From Nereocystis luetkeana (taxonomy: Eukaryota > Sar > Phaeophyceae > Laminariales > Laminariaceae), in the NCBI GenBank assembly GCA_031213475.1, contig JARUPZ010000004.1, positions 6,023,169 through 6,087,168 on the forward strand: a stretch of DNA of 64,000 nt, read 5' to 3'. This document shows positions 1,769 to 61,504 of this stretch, piece after piece. A program made the translations under genes and the position numbers. How positions within the stretch are numbered: position 1 is the first letter of the stretch; the number at the start of each line of letters is the position of its first letter. The notes below the pieces were generated by a model. It saw only the letters and a list, made by a program, of their open reading frames with translations. It did not search any database and had not been told where the DNA came from.

Positions 1769-1779
1769 CCCGTACCTGG

Positions 1780-2088
1780 TACTGTTTTTTCCTAGAGTTT
1801 TCCTTTTTCTCCCTCGTTTTGTGTGTTTGTTTTCTGTTTTTTTGTTCTTGTTTTCTCTCTTTCGTGTATTGAGTATGTCGCGCCTGTCGTATGCAGTACG
1901 ATGACATGGCATTGCGTTTGCATTGTCTACTCTGCGTACTGCACAGCAATGTAGTATCGTATCTCTGTGTCGTAGTTTTGCGACCACAGAACTAGTATCT
2001 AGTTTTGAATAATCGGCTCGGAGACTGGTTGTGTGCTGGATGTCGACGGGGGCAGGAAGAACTGTTGAATGTGAAGAACACACACCCT
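1780..2088 (+). repeat. Dispersed repeat R2, copy 1
   Basis: A T-rich block followed by TGACATGGCATTGC, a GCGACCACAGAACT block and a terminal AATGTGAAGAACACACAC. The same order is seen in both arms of the large inverted repeat at 43.57-44.75 kb and in fragments at 44,876-44,925 and 55,020-55,165. No coding capacity. Confidence 0.75.
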
Positions 2089-6770: not shown

Positions 6771-7473
6771 GCGCGCCGCCTTATTCCTTCTTGAGTAGGT
6801 GGTTGTGGTACTGAATGAACTGTGTAAAGCGTGATTGTGGTACTGAATGAACTGTGTAGAGCGTTTGTAAATCTAATTATTCGGTAATGCGTTGCTGCTG
6901 GAAAAAAAAAAAGCGATACGTATCTGGTATAAATGCTTGAAAAACGATTTTTAAGTAATTTCAAGAAAATAATTTTTCTACAGCAGTACGATCAGTGCGT
7001 TTTTTTTTTCGTGCGATTTGAATTTTCGCTGAAAATTCTAGTGCTCAGAATCCCGCCGCATGTGAAACCGCTATTTGCGGCAGTACGTGGTGATACGTGG
7101 CCACCAGTACGGACTTCTGGTATCAGTCAACACATCGCACGTCGCCCGCAGCAAGCAGCACAACACGTCGTACACCTCCACACTATAGCTTTCCACGAGA
7201 GCATGGTCATCGACACACCTCGGCGAGGAGGACGGTGTGCGTGGAAATAGTGACTGAAAAAAAAAAAAAACTTTAGTAAAGTGATAACTACCAGGTATGT
7301 ATTTTTGCAGACGCGGACCGGGACCCCTCGCAGAGCTCGCCGAGCGGATGCGCGGGAGTTCCCACGCAGCCGGCTGATCACGCATGCCCATCGCCACCAC
7401 ACACACACGATTTTGAGGAGTAAGCCGTCACCAATAGTACTATTAATAATGCTGTGTAGCTAGCTTGGACTCG
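6771..7473. other. Upstream region of the Tudor-knot gene
   Basis: A direct repeat of about 30 bp built on GTGGTACTGAATGAACTGTG occurs at 6,806-6,830 and 6,836-6,860. Otherwise there are A/T runs and no recognisable exon. Promoter elements cannot be assigned from sequence alone. Confidence 0.4.
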
Positions 7474-11309: not shown

Positions 11310-11934
11310 GTTTATACAGGCGGAGTGGGGTGAGGGGGGGGGGGGGGGGGGGGGCTGCCTTGGTTGGCGCAGGGTCGTGGGCGAGGCGGGGGTGGCGGCG
11401 GGTTTGAGGTTTTGGACTTCGCCGTAACATTCTCGAAGCCGTCCGATCGCTTAGCTGATTGGTTGGTTGGTTGGTTGGTTGATTGATGGATTGATTGATT
11501 GATTGATTGATTGGGTGAGTGATATAGTTGGTTGATGAATCGGTGGTTAGTTGGTTAGTCGGTTGATCAAGTGGTTGATTCCATCGATTAAGTGCTTGCG
11601 TGCTTGCTAGCTTGGCTGGTTGATCGATGAATTGATTGTATGATCGATTGATTGATTGATTGATTGATTGATCGGTTGGTAAGTTGAGTGAGCTGCTGGT
11701 TAAACGAGTGGTCGCTTGATCGACTGGCTGGTTACACGTTTTGGCTGGTCTAAAGCTATGGCGAGAGGCGGAGTCACACAATGCTCCCTCCGACATCGCC
11801 CCCCTCATCCCCGGGGTGAATATTTGCTCCATATAATATTATACCGGGTGGACCCTATCCTGCTCGCCCTGCGATGGCTGACATTGGGGGAGGAGGGGGG
11901 GGGGAGGGGGGGGGGCAATACATGAGTTTATCTG
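11310..11934. repeat. Intergenic (TTGA/TTGG)n tetranucleotide array
   Basis: A 22-G run at about 11,335-11,354, then irregular TTGGTTGATTGATT units from about 11,455 to 11,735. The minus-strand Asn/Gln/Thr-rich frame of 190 codons is a product of this array and not a gene. Confidence 0.8.
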
Positions 11935-15165: not shown

Positions 15166-16139
15166 TGCTGTATGAGTAGTCTATTCCTATTTTCTTTTTC
15201 TTTAAACGTTTGGTAAATCAGCGCACCATCTCACCAAACTCCAGAATCAACGCTATTATTAATAATAGTGCCATTCGAGGGCAGCCACTAGACCACCGGA
15301 GCGAGCTTGCTTCATGAAAAGGGGTCAATTTCCTCAGTCATTTGAGATTTACAGCAGTAGCGCGGACGGAAAGCCCGAGAGAAAACTCTTAGGAAATCAC
15401 GACCATAACCCCGTTCTTGCTTTTAGAACTCGAATTACTCTCTTCACGACCATAGCCACTTGGGTATAGCACAAAGACGCTAGATTAACTCCTACTACTG
15501 TATCGTAGGGAAGAGCTACTACAGCAGTATACAATCATCATCGGCGTACTCTTTAATCTGTTTTATCAGGCGCCTCCTCTACGTTTATGTATATCAAAGA
15601 ACACCATTTTTGATCGAACGTGACGTAATTGTTTGTGTTGAGTTTTTTTCACTGCGTTGAAAGGCGGTCGGCGAGGAATCGGAAAAATATTACAAAACAA
15701 TATGTTGTACTTTTACTTGCCCACACGCACCTCGAACACACGTGTGCAGCAACGCCAGCTGCAACAATAACAACACCAGTAGCAGCAGCGGCAGCAGCAG
15801 CAACAACAACAGCAACAACAGAACATCTACCACGTATTGGAACGGAGTTCTCAAAGCACACACGTCGCGAACGCCCACACCCCCCCCCACGGACCCCACC
15901 CTTCCTATGCATAGCTCGGACAAGACGACACCCACTCCCACGCACAAGACACACGCGTCGCTCAACATAACGTGATGCAACAAGTTTTTTCAAGGCTTGC
16001 TGTACTGTTGTTGCAAAGCCCTGAAGATGTTTGGAACCATAATATCAACTGTAGACGTAAAAAGTCGGGCTGAGTACCGTCGGTCGTGGATAAGGAGCAT
16101 CGGGACGCGACGGGTCAGTGGGAGGGAGAACACCTCGAC
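15166..16139. other. No gene seen
   Basis: AT-rich DNA, then a CAA/CAG-rich patch at 15,755-15,825 giving Asn/Ser- and Thr-rich frames on both strands. No coding support. Confidence 0.45.
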
Positions 16140-17384: not shown

Positions 17385-18357
17385 GGGTTTTCAAAAGGGA
17401 AGGAAGGGAAGGGGGAGGAGGAGGGCATGGGGTTGGGGAAGAGGCGGGGAGGCTCCTACTAATACTGTAATTGCACACTAGGTATCTTACTACCGTATGC
17501 AGATAGCGCTGCCGGGTTGCCATCAGAGGAGAAAGGGGAGGGGAAGGGGGGGTTGGGGGGGGGGGGGGGGGCGGGCTGTTGGATGGCGCCTTCGTACTGA
17601 AATGGCAAGCTGGGTACTGCTGTATGCAAACACAACTCCGCACACGCCGGATGCCTATAAAAAAATCAAGAAGTACCCAAAACATAGGTGTTTCGGGGGG
17701 GGGGGGGGTCAGGGATAGAGAGCCCCCCACCAAACATATGGTCGAAGTTATTAAACCAACAGACGCAAGGTACTGAGCTTACGCAGGGATGTACATATGA
17801 CACCTATTTGCAGATCCGGTATGCAATTAGCCGTGCCCCAGCTGAGGCAAGCTTTCCCTGAAGGAACACGGCAAGAGGGTGGCGCTCCCCGACGAACACA
17901 ACTGGTACAACACAGTCAATAAATATAGAGTTGTACCTGGTACATCCGTATCAAACTTACAGTGCGCAGTGCTGTACGGTAACGAACCAGGTGGGTATGG
18001 TTACCGTTGTGCACCAGGTGCGTGATACAGTACCAGCATATTATTGTATCATGAGGAAAGCCTGAAAGAAAGCAGGAAAGCCTGAAAGAAAGCAGGGAAG
18101 CCCGGAGCGTGGGCGACTGACCCCATGCTACTCCACGCACAGCAGCAGCGAAGACTGCTGGCTGCGGTAAGGATGGAAGCGACGAAAGTTCCACGGTGCC
18201 AAACGTAAGCCCACAGGACCACGGGCCGTTACCTGGTACCTGGTGTGTGTTTTTTCTCGTACATATCGTACGTCGTAATATTGTATATACGAGTACGCAG
18301 ATAAAGAGTACAGCAGCATACCAGGGTATACAGCAGTAGTATTAATAGTAGTATTAA
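17385..18357. other. No further exon resolved
   Basis: G/C runs (17,557-17,572 and 17,697-17,708) and a short 19-21 bp tandem repeat AGCCTGAAAGAAAGCAGG at 18,058-18,097. The presumed upstream exon of the 17.2-kb terminal exon was not found. Confidence 0.4.
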
Positions 18358-19850: not shown

Positions 19851-20168
19851 ACCGTACCAGGTATCTACAGCAGTAGGTGTTCATGAGTGCGTGTGCGCAT
19901 CGAACCTCACAAACAGTAACTGTTCTCCTCGGAGTCCCCACTCCGCATAAAGCGTGCAGATGGCAACACTTTATTAGGGGAACGCTGGGCTTATTTATCA
20001 TACGAGCACCGCCGTACGAATACTGCTTTGAAGTTCGGGTGTCGAACTCTAGGAATACGAGCAAACGTAGAAGTGTTGCAGGCACAGGCGGCAGGAGGTA
20101 AACTGGTGTGCTCCTCCCCCTACGTGTATATATACTTCGTATGTGCATCTACGCTGTATACCGTTTAG

Positions 20169-34985: not shown

Positions 34986-35029
34986 TTCCTAATAGAGACA
35001 TACCAGGTATCCAACAGTAGGGCGCTCAG

Positions 35030-36612: not shown

Positions 36613-37486
36613 ACTATAGAAGGGAAAGAACAAAAAGTGTGGGCAGGCGGGGCACGCAGGACACCTTATTTCATCTGTCGGGTTCAAACCAATGCACTAA
36701 GGCGAAGACTAATACCACGGTGAACGGGAAGAAAAGCAAAAAAACAAACAAACATACAAACAAACAAACAAACAAACAGGGAAAACGTACAAGAAAAATA
36801 AGGGAAAAAAAAAAAATGCCAGGAATATAATAAAAAAATTGTGAAATACCATCAGCCCCCCCACCCGCAGAACGGCCCCAGTGCTGGGGGGGATGACCCT
36901 ACAATTAATAGTTGCAGTAATAAGATTGCCAAGGGTCATCCTCCCTTGATAGACGCAGTGTACTTCATCGCACCTTCCTTCCGATCACCCCAATGTGTGC
37001 TCCCGGTGTGTACTCGTGCGTGTATATGATCTACTGCTGTATGAACAGCTCATGCTGCCGGGTGTAACCTGTGACCTGCCTGATGATCTACATGGGGATA
37101 TATTTCCCTGGGTTGGATCTGCTGTACTGCTGCTGTACAGGCCAGGCCCGTGCGCAACAACTCACAACCGCGGGCTACGCTACGATCTACATGATCTACG
37201 TAGATCACGATCTTTCCGACGCGCGTAATCTTTCGAACGTGCCTTTCTTTGGAGCAGATACTGACAGTAGTTGTGACAATTTCAAACGCGATAGCAGCGT
37301 AGTGAGGTATACTACCAGGGACGCATGACATTACAACTTCAGACGTGCGCTTCTTCCAACTGTTTTGGTTGTTGATGTTGTTTCTGTTGTTGTCGTTTTC
37401 GCTTTTCATTTTGTTTTTCAGGGTTGTCGAAAGGCGGGAACATAAACGCGAACTTGATGCCGGAAAAAAAAACGTATGGCAGACTG
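36613..37486. other. No gene; GATC-rich family copy at 37,040-37,230
   Basis: Contains GATGATCTACATGGGGAT...TGGGTTGGATCTGCTG, related to 38,395-38,450 and 52,270-52,340. A (CAAA)n tract lies at 36,740-36,778. Confidence 0.5.
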
Positions 37487-37576
37487 CAGATCAGTCCCGT
37501 TTGGGGGACAAACCAGTCGAATTCTAAATAGTTTGTCCCCAACACGGGCTGACTGCGGTTTGCCCTGAAGGGTTAA
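37487..37576. mobile_element. MITE-B copy 4
   Basis: CAGTCCCGTTTGGGGGACAA...GTCCCCAACACGGGCTGACT, ending GAAGGG followed by TTAA (37,573-37,576). Confidence 0.75.
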
Positions 37577-37762
37577 GGCTGCACTCCCGTTTCGGGTAGA
37601 AATTACTTGAAATTAGACTGAGATATTTGGTTGTGTGCACTGCAGCGGTAAAACAGGGTTAGCACCCATGCACGTGCGTAGACGCCTGCAAAACAGATCA
37701 CGCAATAATACCAAGCCGCACGTACATATAATATACTTCGTATATATATGTATATACCTGGT

Positions 37763-37868
37763 ATGACGGGGGACCATACTTAATAGGATCTATGGTACAC
37801 ACAATTACCTGTATATTTCCGTATTGTTACTATTAATATTTGGTCCTATTTACTATGGTCCTCCGAAA
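37763..37868. mobile_element. MITE-A copy 1 (Tc1/mariner-like)
   Basis: ACGGGGGACCATACTTAATA...TTGGTCCTATTTACTATGGT inverted ends with a ~55-bp centre. This is the leftmost member of a family with copies from here to 60 kb. Confidence 0.8.
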
Positions 37869-39289
37869 TATATATACCCGTAAAAAAGCGTGGCAGCGGG
37901 TTATAGGCCCACGGTAAAAAGTTTCAAAACAATCAACAGCGGTCAATCAAGGCAAAAACAACTAAAATCGAGTCAGCAAGCAAGCACCACCCCACCCCAA
38001 CCCACACACACCACCCCACACCACACCACAGCAATAAATCAACGCGACAAAAAAAAAGACGCGTCGGAGTGATCAATCAATTTTCCACATAATAAATTGA
38101 ATCTGTTTACCAGGGCTTCCAGGGGAAAGATGATTCCTGTTCTGTACCAGATACCAGGTTTCATTCCCCCCGGTGACAATATGTCCCGAAATGTAAGGAA
38201 CCGTATGTTTTCATATTTATGCTTGAACCATCCCTGTATTTCCGGACGTAGTGGTATTTACTACCTCTCCGTCCCGCAATATACTCACCGTTTGGTTTAA
38301 CAATTAGTGTAAGACCGTTGCCTATATAATGGGCCAGAATGGTAAAACCGTACTGGTACCTGGTAGTTCGGATGGGATCCGCATGCACACTCCGCATGAT
38401 CTGCTATAAGGGCATGCCTCCCTGGGATGGATCTGTACACACACAGATCCTGTATCTGTGCTGTTACCGGGGGGACAGAACAATCAGGACCAAATACATA
38501 CACATATGCTCTGATAAAAATACCAGTATAGGGAGGGTGCCTCCATTGGTGGTGTCGGCCTTGTCGTAGTGTTGGACGGGGTTGGCCGAGGCCTTGACGT
38601 GCACGTCTTCTTTCGTGATATGTGGCGAGGAGGTGCCTCCACAAGCCTCCCTCGCGTCTCGCAAGGAGAGAGCTCATACCGCTTGTGAGAGTGCGGGTCC
38701 TTCTCCGAATGTCAACCATTTTCTTGCTCCCCTGGCGCGTTCGGAACTCATGGCCCGAACGTCAACCATTTTATGAAGGTCCATCAGTGATGGCGGATCT
38801 CACAGACCGGACGTTGGTTGACGTTTCTTCATGGTTGGCACTTGAGATCGGAGATTGGCGGTATCTACGTGCCCTGTCCTCCACAATTATGTTTTTTCGT
38901 AAAAATACTGGAATGTATGGGCGTGTGCGTACATGTTGCTGGAATGTACAGGATTTTGTGTACATGATGCTGGAATGTATAGTTTTTTTTGTTTTTTGTG
39001 TACATGCTGGGGTCCTGATCACCGCCGTTACCACGGTCCTCCGTAACCCACAAAAATCCTGCATCTGCACGACAAGGATCCAGCACGGCATACCATAACG
39101 GCAGGTTACGATCTATCTTTGTAGATGATCTATTGAGCTAGATGATCTGTAGATGATCTGCTGTGAAGAGCAGTGTTTATTTAGGTCGTGATTCGTTCGA
39201 CGCGTGCAACAAGCAGTACGACCTCTCCCTCGGAGGCCACGAAAAACCAGCAGCACCAACAAAATGCTGCGAGTGCGAGTACGGCCGTG
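37869..39289. other. Repeat-derived DNA, no supported gene
   Basis: (CACCAC)-rich patch at 37,986-38,030 and a GATC-family piece at 38,385-38,470. A minus-strand open stretch at about 38,527-38,660 (HITKEDVHVKASANPVQHYD) looks protein-like but has no family or splice partner. Three copies of a ~20-bp unit (TGTACATG.TGCTGGAATGTA) lie at 38,908-39,010. Confidence 0.4.
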
Positions 39290-39456: not shown

Positions 39457-39890
39457 GTGGTGATGTTTTTTCTTCTGAACCCCGATGCCGAGGAGTTCAT
39501 CCCTCAGGCGGGACGGGTACATCACCACAGCAGAGAGCGCTACGTGGGCAGCCGGTGGAGTGGAGAGACTGACCACAGCGTGGGTATGCATGCACGACAG
39601 GGAGGAAATGAGTGTCGGCGTGGGTTGGGACGGCTGCACCCAGCCAACTGGAAACCAAGGCGCGTACCGGGCTACGAAACGGATAGCCACTTTCGCCATA
39701 GAGAAGAAGAAGAAAAAAAACAAAAGAATAAAAAAAGGCGGGGACGAGCCTCACGTCGGCTGGCAAAGAAAGCAGCACGCGAGGCTCGTAAGAGACAGAA
39801 GGAGGCACTTGTGGCGGTAGCGACCTACAATGTGCGCACCCTGGCTGTAAAGGGGAAGACGAGCGCGTACTGGCGAAGGGACGGCAACTC
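39457..39890 (+). pseudogene. LINE leader and start of the endonuclease domain
   Basis: The frame at 39,457-40,017 carries a Lys/Arg-rich stretch (EEEEKKQKNKKRRGRASRRL) and then VAVATYNVRTLAVKGK, the first strand of the APE endonuclease with its catalytic Asn. The domain continues in another frame from about 39,870, so a short deletion or frameshift lies between. Confidence 0.7.
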
Positions 39891-40830
39891 GGCTGTGACT
39901 TCATTGGCTTGCAGGAAACTCGGAGGCCCGGCAGCACGACGTTTCGTGCGGCAGGGTATCGCGTTTACTGTTCAGGACATGAAAAAACAGCTACCAGGCA
40001 AGGGGTGTGCGGAGTAGGCCTAGCTGTCAAGGAATCGTTGTGCAGTAAGTCTGTGTACACTCATCAGTTAGTTGACGAGCGGCTAATGTCTACTGGTATG
40101 CGCTTTGAGTTGGCTGGTAAATGCGAGGCAGTCAATTTCGTCGTCGCGTATGCTCCAACTCATTGTACCAAGGACGCCGCACTGAAACGTATAATCTGGC
40201 AGAAGCTGGAGGACTTGGTGGAAAAGATCCCGACGAAAAAGTGTCTGTTTGTACTGATGGATGCCAACGCGCGAACTGGACAGAGGAAGGAAGGGTGCGG
40301 TGATGAAAGTAGAGTGCTGGGAGTGTATGGACGTGATGTTTGTAACGAAAATGGCAGACGGCTCCTGTCGTTCGCCACCAACTGCAAGTTAGCTCTCACC
40401 AACACGTTTTTCAGCACGCGCAAGGGTGGGATATCGCATGCACACAACGGCACCAGCCCGAATGACCGTAAGCGAATCGACTACATCCTAACCCGTCAAG
40501 CCCACCGACCTAGAGTACAAGATGCTACAGTTGTCCCACAGCCTCCTGCCCCAGCTAAGGCTGACTCAGACCATAACATCTTGTATATCAAAGTCCGACT
40601 CGGTGGCCACTTTGCGCCCAACAGACAAGTACGTAGACCGACAAAACGCCGAGAGTTCGACAGGCAGCTTTTTATGTCCGATGGAAAGTGTCGTGAACGA
40701 GTAGTCGCCAGGGTCATTTCCACTCTCAACCAGCCTATCCAGCCCCGAAATACGTCTGGTATGGTTGAGTTTTTCACTACGGCTATTATTGATGCGGTCG
40801 AAAAAGAGGTACCACCCCCTGCACGTTGCC
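39873..40830 (+). pseudogene. LINE APE-type endonuclease domain
   Basis: After the shift: GCDFIGLQETRRPG (catalytic Glu), VNFVVAYAPT, FVLMDANARTG (D-x-N), KRIDYILTRQ and a closing SDHNILYIKVRL (S-D-H). All the main catalytic motifs of the endonuclease/exonuclease/phosphatase fold are present. Role: nicks target DNA to prime reverse transcription. Confidence 0.85.
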
Positions 40831-41200
40831 ACCGCAGACATGGATGGTGTGAGTACCGAAACCTTGGCCGCATTCATACCAGCATGGACATCGAGGGAGG
40901 ATGCACGGCAATTTTTGCGTGCTCACCCCCGGGATAGAACCGCGTGGAAGATACTGAGATCTGTGTGTGCGAACCTGCAGAAGGGGATTACCGCAGGACT
41001 GCATGCGTACTTCGAAGCGTACCTTGCCGAAACCGAACGACTCCTAGCGAACAACGACCAGAGAGGCTTTTACAAGCACCTTAAGAGTACGGTAGGATTG
41101 GAAGGGACAAAAGCGAGGAGCGAACAGTTCATTAGGGACAAGAATAGCACGCTCTTACGGGAAAAGGTGCGAATTCGTGACCGATGGGCGGGGTTTTTTC
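40830..41200 (+). pseudogene. LINE linker between endonuclease and reverse transcriptase
   Basis: Frame 1 (ORF 40,765-41,274): helical linker ending [10 protein letters not shown]. The match then continues as HKLLNTKS in frame 2, so the break lies at the T6 run near 41,190, a homopolymer one base off. Confidence 0.75.
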
Positions 41201-42157
41201 CACAAACTCTTGAACACGAAGTCGCTGAAACTCGATCCCACGATCATCGACCTCTTGCCACCGCGACCGCCTAAACTGTCGCTTGAAGATGAACCATCCA
41301 TGGACGAGATGACAAAAGCACTAAAGGGGATGTCAAATTCGAAAGCTGCCGGGCCAGATGGTCTCCCGGCTGAACTCCTAAAAATCGACCACCCGGCATT
41401 CGCTCAGTGCTTTCACAACATCCTTGTCACTGTTTGGTTAACTGGAGAAGTCCCCCAGGAATGGAAAGATGCGACCATCAGGGTATTTCACAAAAAGAAG
41501 GACCGAGCTGACTGCAACAACTACCGAGGGATTTCGCTTGTTGCCCACGCAGGCAAAGTTTTGTTGAAAATCGTCGCGTCCCGCCTCAGCAACTATTGCG
41601 AGACCGAGGAACTACTCCCTGAGGAACAGTGCGGCTTCCGCCCCGCACGATCAACGATTGATATGTTGTTCGTCGTGCGCCGGTTGCAAAAGCTCGGACG
41701 ACAGAGGAAAATCCCCTTGTACGTGTGCTTCATCGATCTGCAGAAAGCGTACGACTCTGTCGACCGAGAGCTGTTATGGAACGGACTCACACGCTTTGGC
41801 GCACCAATCAAGATGTTGAGAATTATCCGTAATTTCCACGATGGCATGCGGGCTCGCGTGCGTACTGATGACGGCGAGCACTCGGAATGGTTTGATGTCA
41901 CGCAGGGGCTGCGGCGAGGCTGTGTACTATCACCGTTACTGTTCAACTTATTCTTCGCTGCAGCGTTACACGTCGTACTAGTACGCTTCAGCCAAGACGA
42001 AGCCATCGTAAGGGATTTGGTCCAACTCAGTGATGCTGGAGTAGTTCGAACAGAGAAGCAGGAGCCGTTGGCGTGCGTGCGAAGGGCTGTATGGGGCATG
42101 TTGTACGCCGATGATGCAGGAATGTCTCGAAGTCGGCCTACGGGCTCGCGAAAATGA
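41177..42157 (+). pseudogene. LINE reverse transcriptase domain
   Basis: Hallmarks in order: [37 protein letters not shown] with [37 protein letters not shown] (first Asp), [17 protein letters not shown], and GMLYADDAG (Y-A-D-D active site). The frame stops soon after YADD at 42,155. The continuation is in frame 1. Confidence 0.9.
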
Positions 42158-43173
42158 TGACAGTCGTCGTGACTGTCTTCGAAGCAGCAGGCCTCACCGT
42201 ATCGGAAAAGAAGACAGAGACAATGCTCCTACAAACACCAGAACAGACAACCCTCGCACCACCGCTCGTCATCGAAGCGGCAGGCCAGAGGTATAAGCAG
42301 ACGACCCAGTTATTATACCTAGGCGACATTATCCACGAAAACGCTGACCTCTCGCTCGAAATCGACCGACGGATCCGCCTCATGCGAGCATGCCTCAAAC
42401 GGTTCGGCCCGGAGATGTATGATAGGACGACCGCCCCCCTTAGCCTTAAAGTCCGAATGCTGAAGGCCGAGGTGATTGAGACCCTGCTGTACGGGTGTGT
42501 AACGTGGACCCTCAGAGCGGAACACTTTACCAAGCTTCGAACGGTTCACCACCGAGTCCTGTTGCGAGTCGTTGGCTTCCGGCGCCGACTTCGTGCTGAC
42601 CATGCCACCCTCTCGTCTGCGAAGGCCCTCAAGATTACACGTTGCGAGAGCATCGAAACGACCATTCGTAAACGGCGGCTCTTCTTTGCGGGGGGCGTGG
42701 CACGGCAAAGCAAGGAGCGATTACCCAGTCGGGCAATGTTCGGGACGATAGCTGGTGGGGAGAACCCGAGACCAGGAGGACAGTGTAAGACTTGGCATAG
42801 ATGCATGGTCGAAGACCTTAGGGAGTTCCGAGCCACCGAAGGGTCGACGGAAGTTGCCCCCTTGGTGTTTGGAATTGAGACCGCGTTGTGGTCCACTGCA
42901 GCCAAAAAGGCGGGGAAGTGGTACCGGGGGATCCTTGAAGCAGCCGAACGGTTCATGGTGAGGTGGCACGAGGCTGAGGCTGAGATGAGTAGGCAGCGTC
43001 GCGCATCCGCCGTGGTTGGTGTCCAAGGGAACGGGGGCGGGGGGGGCAACAGGAGGAGTGGCAGAAAACCCGACCAAGGAAATGCGGAGAGGGGGGGGGA
43101 CAGGAGGAGTAGAAGGGAAACTGCGGTAGGCGAAAGTAGGAAGGAGATGACAGACAGGGTAGCAAGGCACTAG
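42136..43173 (+). pseudogene. LINE C-terminal domain
   Basis: Picks up directly after YADD with [19 protein letters not shown] and KKTETM, then YLGDIIHENADLSLEIDRRI (thumb/connection) and LLYGCVTWTLRAEH. A long Arg-rich C-terminus ends at TAG 43,171-43,173. A single missing base near 42,135 separates it from the YADD frame. Confidence 0.85.
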
Positions 43174-43570: not shown

Positions 43571-44162
43571 TATTTTCCCTTTGTTGTTTTTTCCTTGGTT
43601 CTTTGTCATACTCTGTTTACGAGCAGCGGTGTTTTTGGTATTTTTTATCTTCTTTTCTTTCCAGCTCGTTCTTTTTCAAGTGTTGGCCACCTCGCCTGCG
43701 GGGGGGGGGGGCACGACCGATTGTTTCTTCTAGTTTTTTGTTTATTTTTTTCATTTTCTCTTTCGAGTTGTCTTCTTTGTTTTTGTTTTCTCCTTGATTG
43801 TTTCCTTTCGTTTCTCTATTTCATAGAGTGTTTACGTCGTGCCTGTCGTACCTAGTATGATGACATTTCCTCCTCATCCCATTCATTATCTTCGCACATC
43901 TTCTTCTCTCTCTCCTTCCAACTCGTAACTCAGATCCGGGGTCACATAGCCGGCTCTTCTACCCCCTTCCCGCTACGGTTGGCATTGCTTTGTGTGCTTA
44001 CTGCATACCAGGTACGTGGCAACGTGGTATATCTGTGGCGTAGCTTTGTGACCACAGAACTGGTATCTCTTCTAGGATTGAACAATCGGCACGGACACTG
44101 GTTGTGCTGGATGTCGACGGGTAGAAAGAACGGTTTAATGTGAAGAATACACACATACCTGG
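43571..44162 (+). repeat. R2, left arm of a large inverted repeat
   Basis: TTTTCCCTTTGTTGTTTTTT ... GTTTAATGTGAAGAATACAC, with a SINE1 fragment inserted. The other arm is 44,264-44,745. A MITE-A lies at the centre. Confidence 0.85.
43868..43979 (-). mobile_element. SINE1 3' fragment inside R2
   Basis: CTCATCCCATTCATTATCTT...CTTCCCGCTACGGT. Only the tail-proximal 110 bp. R2 arm B lacks it, so it arrived after the R2 duplication or was removed from arm B. Confidence 0.85.
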
Positions 44163-44252
44163 TAGTTAATAGGATCAAATACTGATAGGTAAATGTATAC
44201 CTGGTAGGTTTTAGTGTGTACCGTAGGTCCTATTTACTATGGTCCCCCGTAA
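44163..44252. mobile_element. MITE-A copy 2, left-truncated, centre of the inverted repeat
   Basis: TAGTTAATAGGATCAAATAC...GGTCCTATTTACTATGGTCC then CCCGTAA. It carries a TACCTGGTA scar at 44,198-44,206 where other copies have TA. Confidence 0.85.
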
Positions 44253-44263
44253 TACTACGTATG

Positions 44264-44745
44264 AATGTACGTGTGTGTTCTTCACATTAAACCGTTCTTT
44301 CTACCCGTCGACATCCAGCACAACCAGTGTCCGTGCCGATTCTCCAATCCTAGAAGAGATACGAGTTCTGTGGTCACAAAGCTACGCCACAGCAGAGATA
44401 CTACGTTGCCACGTGTGCAGTATGCACTGCAGTGGGCAATGCAAACAAAGCCATGTCATCATACTAGATACGACAGGCACGACATACACAATCTATGAAA
44501 TAGTGAAACGAAAAGAAACAATCAAAGAGAAAACAAAAACAAAGTAGACAAATCGAGAGAGAAAAAGAAGAAAAATGAAAGCAAAAACAAGGAGAAACAA
44601 TCTGTCGTGCCCCCCCCCCCGCAGGCGAGGTGGCCAACACTTGAAAAAAAAACGAGCTGGAAAAAAGAAAAAGAAAAAAAAAAACACCACTGCTTGTAAA
44701 CAGAGTGAGACAAAGAACCAAGGAAAAAAATAACAAAGGAAAAAT
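44264..44745 (-). repeat. R2, right arm of the large inverted repeat
   Basis: TGTGTGTTCTTCACATTAAA ... CAAGGAAAAAAATAACAAAG. Reverse complement of 43,571-44,162 without the SINE1 fragment. Confidence 0.85.
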
Positions 44746-44764
44746 AACAAAACGTACGCACATA

Positions 44765-44875
44765 TTACGAGGGACCATAGTTAATAGGACCTACCAGGTA
44801 TGGTATACATAAAAACTACCAAGTACCTGGTATATATTTGACCATTTTTACCAACAATATTTGGTCCTGTTAACT
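44765..44875. mobile_element. MITE-A copy 3, right-truncated, with three micro-insertions
   Basis: TTACGAGGGACCATAGTTAA...ATATTTGGTCCTGTTAACT. Compared with other copies it has TACCAGGTA at 44,792-44,800 and the double TACCAAGTACCTGGTA at 44,817-44,832. An R2 fragment (44,876-44,925) follows. Confidence 0.85.
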
Positions 44876-45022
44876 GTGTGTGTTCTTCACATTAAACCGT
44901 TCTTTTTACCCGTCGATAGTTAACCATGGCACCATCACTACTGCTGCACAACGCTAACAACACGACTGCTGCCTCTTTATGCCACCGGGAGAGACGACAC
45001 GAGGTCTGCTCCTGTTTGTTTG

Positions 45023-45361
45023 TTTTTTTTTTTTTTTTCTCATCCCATTCATCATCTTCGCACATCTTCTCCTCTCTCTCCTTCCAACTCGTAACTCAGA
45101 TCCGGGGTCACATAGCAGGTTCTTCTCCCCCCTTCCCGCTACGGTACGTGCCTTCATCTTTATAGCGAGAAGATTTCAGCCTTTTCTTCCCTCGTCGACT
45201 CGCATCGAATTGTGCCTACCCACGCTGCAAGGCGCTCTCAACAATTGAATCCTTTTTTATTTTTGCAAATAAAGTCAAAGTCCGACCCACCTGGGGGTCG
45301 AACCCAGGACTCAAACAAGTAGAATTCGAGGTTAAGCACTTGAACCACCGGGACGACCGGC
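45023..45361 (-). mobile_element. SINE1 copy
   Basis: Full length: poly-T (tail) at 45,023-45,038, body, and tRNA-like head to CCGGTCGTCCCGGTGG (minus strand). The head has lost one base relative to other copies. Confidence 0.9.
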
Positions 45362-45507
45362 TGTACGTACATTTCATCGGTCGAATAGCGCCACTCAGCC
45401 GTGTCATCCATCACGCACCACGACATCACAAAAAAACAATAACATTATATCAAACGTAACTCAAAAATAAGCATTTTTTAATTATTATACCGATGCTTTT
45501 CATCAGC

Positions 45508-45849
45508 CGGTCGCCCCGGTGGTTCAAGTGGTTAACCTCGAATTCTACTTGTTTGAGTCCTGGGTTCGAGCCCCAGGAGGGTCGGACTTTGACTTTATTT
45601 GCAAAAATAAAAAAAGGGATTCAATTGTTGAGAGCGCCTTGCAGCGTGGGTAGGCACAATTCGATGCGAGTCGACGAGGGAAGAAAAGGCTGAAATCTTC
45701 TCGCGATAAAAATGAAGGCACGTACCGTAGCGGGAAGGGGGGAGAAGAGCCTGCTACGTGTCCCCGGATCTAAGTTACGAGTCGGAAGGAGAGAGAGAAG
45801 AAGATGTGCGAAGATAATGAATGGGATGAGAAAAAAAAAAAAAAAAAAA
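45508..45849 (+). mobile_element. SINE1 copy (reference for the family)
   Basis: Plus-strand copy: head CGGTCGCCCCGGTGGTTCAA (A-box region), B box GGGTTCGAGCCCC, body, 20-nt poly(A). Target duplication ATCAGC at 45,502-45,507 and 45,850-45,855. Heads like this drive RNA polymerase III transcription; mobilisation would need LINE enzymes. Confidence 0.92.
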
Positions 45850-47282: not shown

Positions 47283-47629
47283 TTTTTTTTTTATTATTAT
47301 TATCCCATTTATGATCTTCGCCCATCTTCTTCTCTCTCTCCTTCCAACTTGTAACTCAGATCCGGGGTCACATAGCAGGCTCTTCTACCCCCTTCCCGCT
47401 ACGGTACGTGCCTTCATTTTTATCGCGAGAAGATTTCAGCCTTTTCTTCCCTCGTCGATTCGCATCGAATTGTGCCTACCCACGCTGCAAGGCGCTCTCA
47501 ACAATTGGATCCTTTTTTATTTTTATTTTTGCAAATAAAGTCAAAAGTCCGACCCACCTGGGGCTCGAACCCAGGACTCAAACACAAGTAGAATTCGAGG
47601 TTAACCACTTGAACCACCGGGGCGACCGG
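47283..47629 (-). mobile_element. SINE1 copy with 6-bp target duplication
   Basis: Full length; CTCCAT at 47,277-47,282 and 47,630-47,635 flanks it. The tail is poly-T with ATT interruptions on the plus strand. Confidence 0.92.
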
Positions 47630-47743
47630 CTCCATAGGTTGCGAATAGGCGCCGTCGTTTTTAAGTGGCTATGTATGCACGTAGCTTCCCACTTTATTCC
47701 AGATATGGTCGAGGGTCGAATACCGTACAATTAGTATCATTAA

Positions 47744-47864: not shown

Positions 47865-47973
47865 TATCGGGGGGGCATAGTAAATAGGACCAAATATTGT
47901 TAGTAAAAATAGGGAAGTACTTGGTATACAGGTTTTTGAGTTTACCGTAGGTCCTATTTACTATGGCCCCCCG
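47865..47973. mobile_element. MITE-A copy 7
   Basis: ATCGGGGGGGCATAGTAAAT...GTCCTATTTACTATGGCCCC. It carries a TACTTGGTA scar at 47,918-47,926. Confidence 0.85.
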
Positions 47974-49420: not shown

Positions 49421-49636
49421 ATTGAGCGGTAAAACGGCTTTGATCGAGCGGTGGTCGGCGAAATTATTTACGTATCCGGTCCGAACTGTGCCCAGGGGGG
49501 GGTATTTATTGCTGCTGTTGTGGTCGACTTCACACTACCTAACGCATCGCCATACCGCTGTCACAAGACAGGCGCCAGTAATCGTGCCTGGAGTGTGTCG
49601 TATATGATTGTACCAGGTACCAGGTATACATAATAA

Positions 49637-57612: not shown

Positions 57613-58379
57613 ATCTCCACACAAAATCCCAGATTTTCCACGGCAGGTTCAACTTTTAAACGGCATCCGCAACGAACGCGAACAAAAAAATAATCATGAC
57701 AAAAAGAAAACACGGTTCGTGGGGATATCAGGCCCCCTTCCCCTGTAGATACCGCCGCCTCTTTGCACACAAGTTGCTTTGTACACAAGTTGAAGTTCAC
57801 ACCCAAGTTCTGTCATTGCGTTCCCTTTAGACCCGAGGTGCCGACCAAACTCGGTGTGTACTCCCTACCACAGCCGCCCAAAGAGAGTACACGCATGGGG
57901 CGTCCGCCCCACATTGGTGTCGATGGCAGGACTCACTTTTGTAAAATGGCGTTATACTCGTACGTACCTGGTATAGTTTATTTCATGTCACCTTACCAAA
58001 AAATATATATCACATTTTCACTTGTCTCAGATCGTGGCATCAACTAATTTTTTTTTCATGTTTTTCGAAAAAAAAAAATCAATGTAACTCACGATTCGGG
58101 AAAAATGTCATGTCGATGGGATCCGTGACATTTTTCGTTTGTTCGTTCAGAATGACCCTTATTTACGGACATCGTTTTTCTATCCATCAAGACACCCGGC
58201 ATACAGCTTGTCCGTGAGGTCACCTCTTTGTCGTTGCTGGTCGATGGGTCTAAGTCGCCTCGGCGGGCTTTTTGCCCCAAGGAGCTGGCAGCAGGTGACC
58301 AACGCACGGCACGACTAGCTCGCAGCAGTCGACGTACGCATAAGCCCTAGCGCCCAAGGCACACACCGTAGGCGGCGTA
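57613..58379. other. No supported gene
   Basis: The minus-strand frame 58,089-58,307 is polar and protein-like but unrecognised. Confidence 0.35.
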
Positions 58380-60753: not shown

Positions 60754-61504
60754 GGCGCAAGGCAGGCTAAGAAGCGAGCACTCCCGCAACGTTCGATATT
60801 TATACAAGTCAACCCCGACCGAGGGACAAGGCGCGGAGACTCCGACTTGCCTGCAGTCGACCTCTTCGCCTCTCAGGGGTCCCCGTCGGAAGCGCCGCCG
60901 GAGGCAAAGCAAATGTTCATAGGCGTTGTCGCTTCTTTGCCCATCGGGGGGGGGGCTCAATACTGTATTGGTCAGGGGTAGTTGGGTGGTTGCGGGCATC
61001 GACACAGAAAATGTCGGGAGAAAACATATTTACGTACCAAGAAAAAAACAAACAAATCAAGAATGCCAAGAAAACGATGTACTGGTCGTATGGGAATTGT
61101 GGCGACGATGGGACGGTCTTACTTCGTTGTGTGGTTTGTCTCTCCTCTATCCTCTCGGAGCTCCTTTTTATAGTTTTCCGTCATATGATACGGCGTATTT
61201 CTCGGATTTAATACAGTAATACATACAAGGCGCTTCGCTCCGCGGGCGGCCTACGCCGCCCGCTACGCTCGCTCAGGAAGGGAAAAAGTACATCAAATTA
61301 AGCGAAGCGAACAGAGGTCCACGATTGAATTTAGTTTTTGCAAGGATCGTAATTGCAAACCGGCGACTTGATAATGCCAAGAGTCCCGCCGCCGTGCTTC
61401 AGGAAAAAACAGCTCCGACGTCAGCTCGGACACCACATAATACTGCTGTACTTATTTTCTTATTTTGATATGCTCTACCAGGTATGTCTGTACTCGTATG
61501 TACG
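60754..61504. other. No supported gene
   Basis: One plus-strand frame (60,736-60,981) looks GC-rich and polar but has no partner exon. A GCGGGCGGCCTACGCCGCCC palindrome lies at 61,241-61,260. Confidence 0.35.

Follow-up and report, generated by a model that had tools for sequence, protein, structure and literature searches.

How did some copies of the repeats in this part of the Nereocystis luetkeana genome come to carry a few extra bases at a TA where related copies have the TA alone? The stretch analysed here, referred to as the window, comprises 64,000 nucleotides of contig JARUPZ010000004.1 (positions 6,023,169 to 6,087,168 of the forward strand), and the repeats concerned are MITE-A and R2. 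The extra piece is CCWGGTA, constant in sequence, which turns a plain TA into TACCWGGTA. The first-pass annotation of the window quoted five such sites, all exact by coordinate and sequence, and read them as the outcome of repair after transposon excision at a duplicated TA. Our analysis indicates that these 7-bp units are probably footprints left by a cut-and-paste transposon that targeted TA and whose excision produced 5-nt 3′ overhangs of sequence CCAGG.

The motif is far more abundant than expected. The window holds 17 exact copies of TACCWGGTA, whereas 100 shuffles gave 0.34 on average and never more than 2, and it holds 22 sites when TACYWRGTA is allowed; the statement that it occurs dozens of times elsewhere in the window was, therefore, too strong. 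In the whole assembly (465,085,209 bp, 1,987 contigs), it is found at 182,395 places, or one per 2.5 kb, whereas the same pattern read backwards, which serves as the control, is found at 1,744 (a 105-fold excess), and equal base use would predict ∼3,500. The exact copies alone account for about 0.27% of the genome.

Sequence context was studied in a sample made up of 20 10-kb stretches taken at fixed locations, 5 more stretches, the window, and six 3-kb loci chosen for holding the motif. Two further loci, L005 and L006, were dropped as they overlap with L004, while L007 and L008, which overlap by 1,223 bp that contain no motif copy, were both retained. The first sample consisted of 27 stretches (282,054 bp, including 2,500 N), and the later one of 32 stretches (332,054 bp). 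In the 282-kb sample, TA is present on both sides of 112 of 641 CCWGG words (11 of the 112 fall in the six loci picked for the motif), while the next flank pair is seen 14 times. CCWGG also ranks far ahead of the other TA-N5-TA words with at least 8 occurrences, at 112 compared to 2.4 expected from an order-3 Markov model on both strands. The sites, which thus have a fixed short core bounded by TA on both sides, are clustered, with 20 of 86 successive gaps shorter than 100 bp (3.9% expected). Three motif copies lie within 43 bp of AT-rich DNA in L018:1828-1870. As separate observations on word usage, among the 9-mers that occur at least 10 times in the window, CTATTAATA has the highest enrichment (20 against 0.38), and TATTAATA is found 136 times against 12 in the 282-kb sample.

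Comparison with paralogues bears directly on the origin of the unit. The flanks of 127 sites were joined around one TA and paralogues were sought across the junction, where a clean empty paralogue was defined as ungapped, with TA at the junction and at most 4 differences in 22 bases. A paralogue spans 25 sites, and a clean plain-TA paralogue exists for 8 of these 25, compared to 12 of 241 for all other TA-N5-TA words (Fisher P = 1.2e-4) and 0 of 34 for TACSGTA (P = 4.9e-4); both P values treat sites as independent. Further controls gave 3 of 28 for TACWGTA, 0 of 2 for TAGWCTA and 1 of 19 for TAGGWCCTA. The last of these reached 7 of 19 in a looser test (11 of 25 for CCWGG), because mismatches were unlimited there.

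Three of the eight sites with a clean empty paralogue are located in MITE-A copies (L017 7306, L026 7056 and window 44,792). The other five are in L003, L014, L015, L030 and at window 61,476, so that the eight represent about six repeat families; for L014, L015 and L030, the displayed paralogues come from the same stretch as the site. MITE-A is 103 bp long with TA at both ends, and its strand is arbitrary since the element is nearly palindromic. Among the 40 copies found in the sample, 38 are near full length, and 8 of these contain the motif with at most one mismatch (exact in 5), at positions 35, 45, 46, 50, 53, 56 (three copies), 69 and 78 of individual copies. The remaining 30 lack it, in agreement with the earlier description of plain TA in most members. 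Units scattered over single copies, together with an empty majority, argue against a later deletion of the unit, which had been named as the finding that would overturn the excision reading. As judged from sequence comparison, gain of the extra unit by insertion appears to fit better than its loss elsewhere by deletion. The relevant features of the window are as follows (a strand is given where one was assigned).

1773..1781: TACCTGGTA footprint-like site, exact match
7289..7297: TACCAGGTA footprint-like site, exact match
17934..17942: TACCTGGTA footprint-like site, exact match
18230..18238: TACCTGGTA with CCTGGTG immediately after it, perhaps a decayed double
18319..18328, plus strand: TACCAGGGTA, 6-nt polar variant
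19855..19863: TACCAGGTA footprint-like site, exact match
35001..35009: TACCAGGTA footprint-like site, exact match
37755..37763: TACCTGGTA adjoining a MITE-A copy (37,766-37,865)
38357..38365: TACCTGGTA footprint-like site, exact match
44006..44014: TACCAGGTA in one R2 arm, outside the eight strict-test sites; the L007 paralogue has a plain TA, GCATACGTGG
44156..44164: TACCTGGTA at the edge of a MITE-A copy
44163..44251, plus strand: MITE-A copy with a footprint-like unit
44198..44206: TACCTGGTA inside a MITE-A copy, outside the eight strict-test sites
44766..44878, minus strand: MITE-A copy with three footprint-like units
44792..44800: TACCAGGTA, with 18 clean plain-TA paralogues in the sample
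44817..44832: double TACCAAGTACCTGGTA; its flanks joined at one TA match an L008 paralogue (90.6%), with a gap of one base next to the TA
47868..47973, plus strand: MITE-A copy with TACTTGGTA
47918..47926: TACTTGGTA, one-mismatch unit in MITE-A
49611..49626: tandem double TACCAGGTACCAGGTA
57965..57973: TACCTGGTA footprint-like site, exact match
61476..61484: TACCAGGTA, with 3 clean plain-TA paralogues, one of them in L025 at 93%

The DNA around the motif shows a target preference. When both sides are symmetrised for the test (214 half sites), the bases favoured in the flanks, relative to all TA sites, are T or C at position +1 (χ2 = 37), A at +2 (26), T at +3 (27) and at +6 (68), and A or T at +7 (86), with 3 degrees of freedom each. 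Deviations at +1, +2, +3, +6, +7, +8 and +9 have χ2 values between 14 and 86, and those elsewhere do not exceed 7.6; at +7, C and G together make up 16% at the motif versus 48% at all TA sites. The leading flank bases are unchanged when, of 107 sites, the 45 that have a CCWGG-like word no more than 12 bp away are left out. The G+C content is 0.44 around the motif and 0.48 around 804 drawn TA sites. The preference around the TA is symmetric, within a test that symmetrised the two sides.

Two derivatives of the motif are also common. The variant TACCAGGGTA, with the 6-nt core CCAGGG, occurs at 11,422 places in the genome (control 409), and TACCTGGGTA, with the core CCTGGG, at 1,578 (control 362). 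This polarity supports reading the element end as CCAGG, since a slip by one G yields CCAGGG and not CCTGGG, although the 6-nt variant could conceivably be the footprint of a second element. Seven copies of TACCAGGGTA also form a tandem array with a period of 528 bp at G000:C1:1305185-1308362. Doubles of the form TACCWGGTACCWGGTA are found at 15,917 places (control 2); each adds 14 bp, so that the extra 7 bp reported for every case does not apply to them. Among the 59 doubles listed for the plus strand, all on one contig, 40 have two centres alike and 19 have unlike ones (P = 0.009 versus half), the latter being A-then-T in 14 and T-then-A in 5. Unlike centres require two events, as copying of one unit cannot produce them, while the excess of like centres suggests some unit copying. 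The double was also seen in 9 stretches of IMG/VR, without clustering, and these matches were taken as chance.

Repair of an excision at a duplicated TA, as first proposed, provides the best explanation for the scale, the target preference, the polar variant and the empty sites in six families; the element itself, with TACCWGG ends, is the part of the proposal that was not recovered in the 332-kb sample or at the four DDE_1 loci fetched. From the scars we infer the former presence of a transposon, the length and strand of its overhangs, and the repair route. The transposon would insert into the TA of a target that is symmetric and AT-rich, and duplicate this TA, a target site duplication that is shared with Tc1/mariner elements and that the footprint itself suggests. 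During excision, the non-transferred strand would be cut five nucleotides into the element at either end, so that both flanks would keep a 3′ overhang reading 5′-CCAGG-3′. The two overhangs would then anneal (C:G, C:G, A:A, G:C, G:C) and be ligated, and repair of the central A:A mismatch to A or T would result in TA-CCWGG-TA. The centre of the Sleeping Beauty footprint may be A or T. A one-base slip in GG pairing would give rise to the polar variant, and later insertions at the TA of the footprint itself would generate many of the doubles. The very high frequency of past movement that was first suggested is not required, since an equal count would result from many jumps spread across a long period.

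Known systems offer partial parallels. The nick made by Sleeping Beauty and mariner transposases lies three bases into the element, giving 3-nt 3′ overhangs that become the footprint (PMC7827188), and the Sleeping Beauty footprint is CAG (PMC8151067), set between two TA. The same rule may apply here by analogy with five bases; the core is 5 nt instead of 3, and copies are on the order of 10^5 in one genome. TACWGTA, the would-be 3-nt footprint of CAG-ended elements, was seen 105 times in the 282-kb sample, with 43 expected. Footprints of Stowaway and Osmar5 elements in grasses are likewise TA-bounded and are described as variable fragments of 1 to 4 bp of the terminal inverted repeats (PMC1925063), whereas one sequence dominates here. 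Excisions in rice are almost always accompanied by deletions or filler DNA (PMC4423477), and it is against such imprecision and the variability of grass Stowaway footprints that the uniformity seen here stands out. Non-canonical footprints have been described for Hsmar2 (PMC3770610).

Several results weigh against excision, beginning with the search for a full element and its DD-E/D transposase that the first-pass annotation had called for. The 332-kb sample contained no recognisable TACCWGG-ended element among the candidates inspected, namely the best 40 of 12,697 inverted TACCWGG...CCWGGTA pairs with mismatches allowed, the best 15 of 708 exact pairs, and 31 distinct pairs from the 460 hits obtained by joined-flank matching of 8,529 pairs. 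A six-frame search without introns yielded, from 30 candidates, 0 genome matches to the DDE_3 transposase (PF13358). In lacking both a recognised parent and a DDE_3 match, the system differs from Sleeping Beauty. DDE_1 transposase has 28 matches in the genome, but matching CCAGG ends were absent at the 4 loci that were fetched. As only ∼0.07% of the genome was read, the absence of a parent is weak evidence, and the parent could have been lost, be rare or lie in sequence that was not read. Other unfavourable points concern the footprints themselves. The proposed overhang of 5 nt exceeds the 3 nt given for Sleeping Beauty and mariner in PMC7827188. A census of 4-12 bp indels contains 300 entries, 39 of them of 7 bp, in which a 6-bp TA-CGAC class (10 entries) outnumbers TA-CCWGG (8 entries from 4 sites). 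All empty sites, with their single TA, are known from paralogues, which are not independent within a family, and the 6-nt variant has a clean empty paralogue at 0 of 2 spanned sites. Copies with one mismatch exceed expectation by 88, alongside the 112 exact ones in the 282-kb sample, and about 60% of this excess consists of transitions. This variation is uneven, with a peak at the outer positions and a minimum at positions 4 and 6 in the interior; the largest excess is in the 5′-side TA of the A-centred strand (∼34 in the left TA versus ∼10 in the right TA). The two-mismatch class shows no excess (−10.5 versus about +34 under simple decay). Due to these two features, the total near 4 × 10^5 copies obtained from a simple decay model is rough. 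Lastly, perhaps about a third of the doubles arose from unit copying, as the like-centre excess suggests.

Candidates for the parent were considered and rejected. The best inverted pair (L030 145 and 2206) matches at 12 of 15 and resembles a pair of related exons in opposite orientation, with CAG|GTAAGY splice donors, the region at window 37,313-38,427, starting with TACCAGGG, is a patchwork of other repeats, and a 29-bp unit in L007 is best read as two decayed units. A complete-looking DDE_1 element at L046:923-3154 (G000:C1:21356922-21359153), which we take to be pogo/Tigger-like, has TA on both sides, as do the units described here, but its ends are CAGTACCGG (CAGTACCGGCCCGC) and not CCAGG; the transposase match is on the minus strand and contains one TAG. 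Five DDE_1 matches (G000: C2:7920664, C809:24564, C872:9120, C1099:19071 and C1378:5152) agree in score and frame length, each has three TAG stops, and they resemble recent copies of one element. No clear ends were seen at the one that was fetched (L045).

The same units could be reached if the body of an element were lost by microhomology-mediated joining, where the CCWGG tips serve as near-direct repeats and a break collapses the element to TACCWGGTA without a 5-nt staggered cut. CCWGG ends would be both direct and inverted repeats, the product would be identical, and the 6-nt variant also fits joining through GG microhomology. However, this process should leave broad remnants, whereas TACC-n-GGTA is found at 124 places in the sample for n = 1 and at 15, 17, 9, 1, 6, 11, 7 and 21 places for n = 0, 2, 3, 4, 5, 6, 7 and 8 (the last value swollen by doubles), which makes such an origin unlikely.

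Direct insertion of the 7-bp unit at a preferred TA without a long element, e.g. by abortive integration of a processed transposon tip, would agree with the lack of a parent in the sample and at the fetched DDE_1 loci, as well as with the uniform product, the symmetric target preference and the clustering. However, uniformity is already explained by known footprints, the missing parent says little at the fraction of the genome read, and we know of no enzyme that inserts such a unit directly, which counts against this explanation; we consider it improbable. A broader proposal, doubtful at this stage and offered tentatively, is that a DNA transposon lineage, by now extinct or almost extinct in this genome and with a transposase that cut at an unusual 5-nt stagger, is known solely from its 2 to 4 × 10^5 excision scars or, failing that, that an as yet undescribed element-free process inserts a near-palindromic unit of 7 bp at TA.

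A binding or methylation motif under selection would be palindromic and could be very abundant, as TACCWGGTA is, and a conserved core would also give the least variation at inner positions 4 and 6. The extra unit is, however, present in single copies of six repeat families, and its surroundings are somewhat AT-richer, so that selection for function seems very improbable. Spread of a 7-bp satellite by unit duplication through replication slippage, to which the 15,917 doubles and their like-centre excess might point, has almost no chance of being the main process, as doubles can account for no more than about 17% of the 182,395 copies, slippage cannot seed single ones, and single copies occur in repeats that have plain-TA paralogues.

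Excision footprints are usually studied locus by locus. If the units are footprints, the genome keeps a record of jumps from which target preference, repair fidelity, end polarity and tempo could be read statistically, and cut-and-paste activity could be counted from scars once the element is gone or rare. Frame-shifting 7-bp insertions at TA would then be a major mutation class in this lineage, and the Sleeping Beauty pattern of cleanly rejoining ends would be extended to a near-palindromic overhang of 5 nt. Among the literature matches listed, with preprints outside their scope, no title deals with such a footprint population, which does not establish novelty; a study of Ectocarpus transposons reports 17 Mariner-Tc1 families and does not use the word "footprint" in its main text (PMC12477816).

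Other repeats are also present in the window. A LINE (long interspersed nuclear element)-type element at 39792-43170 contains endonuclease and reverse transcriptase frames (PF03372 and PF00078). Among the 120 relatives listed for the window's reverse transcriptase, two bear an organism name, Ectocarpus sp., in line with a brown alga as the likely host. Inverted tRNA-like repeats (GGTCGCCCCGGTGGTTCAAGTGGTTAACC...), in which ARAGORN called no tRNA, are located at 45250-45640 and 47530-47630.
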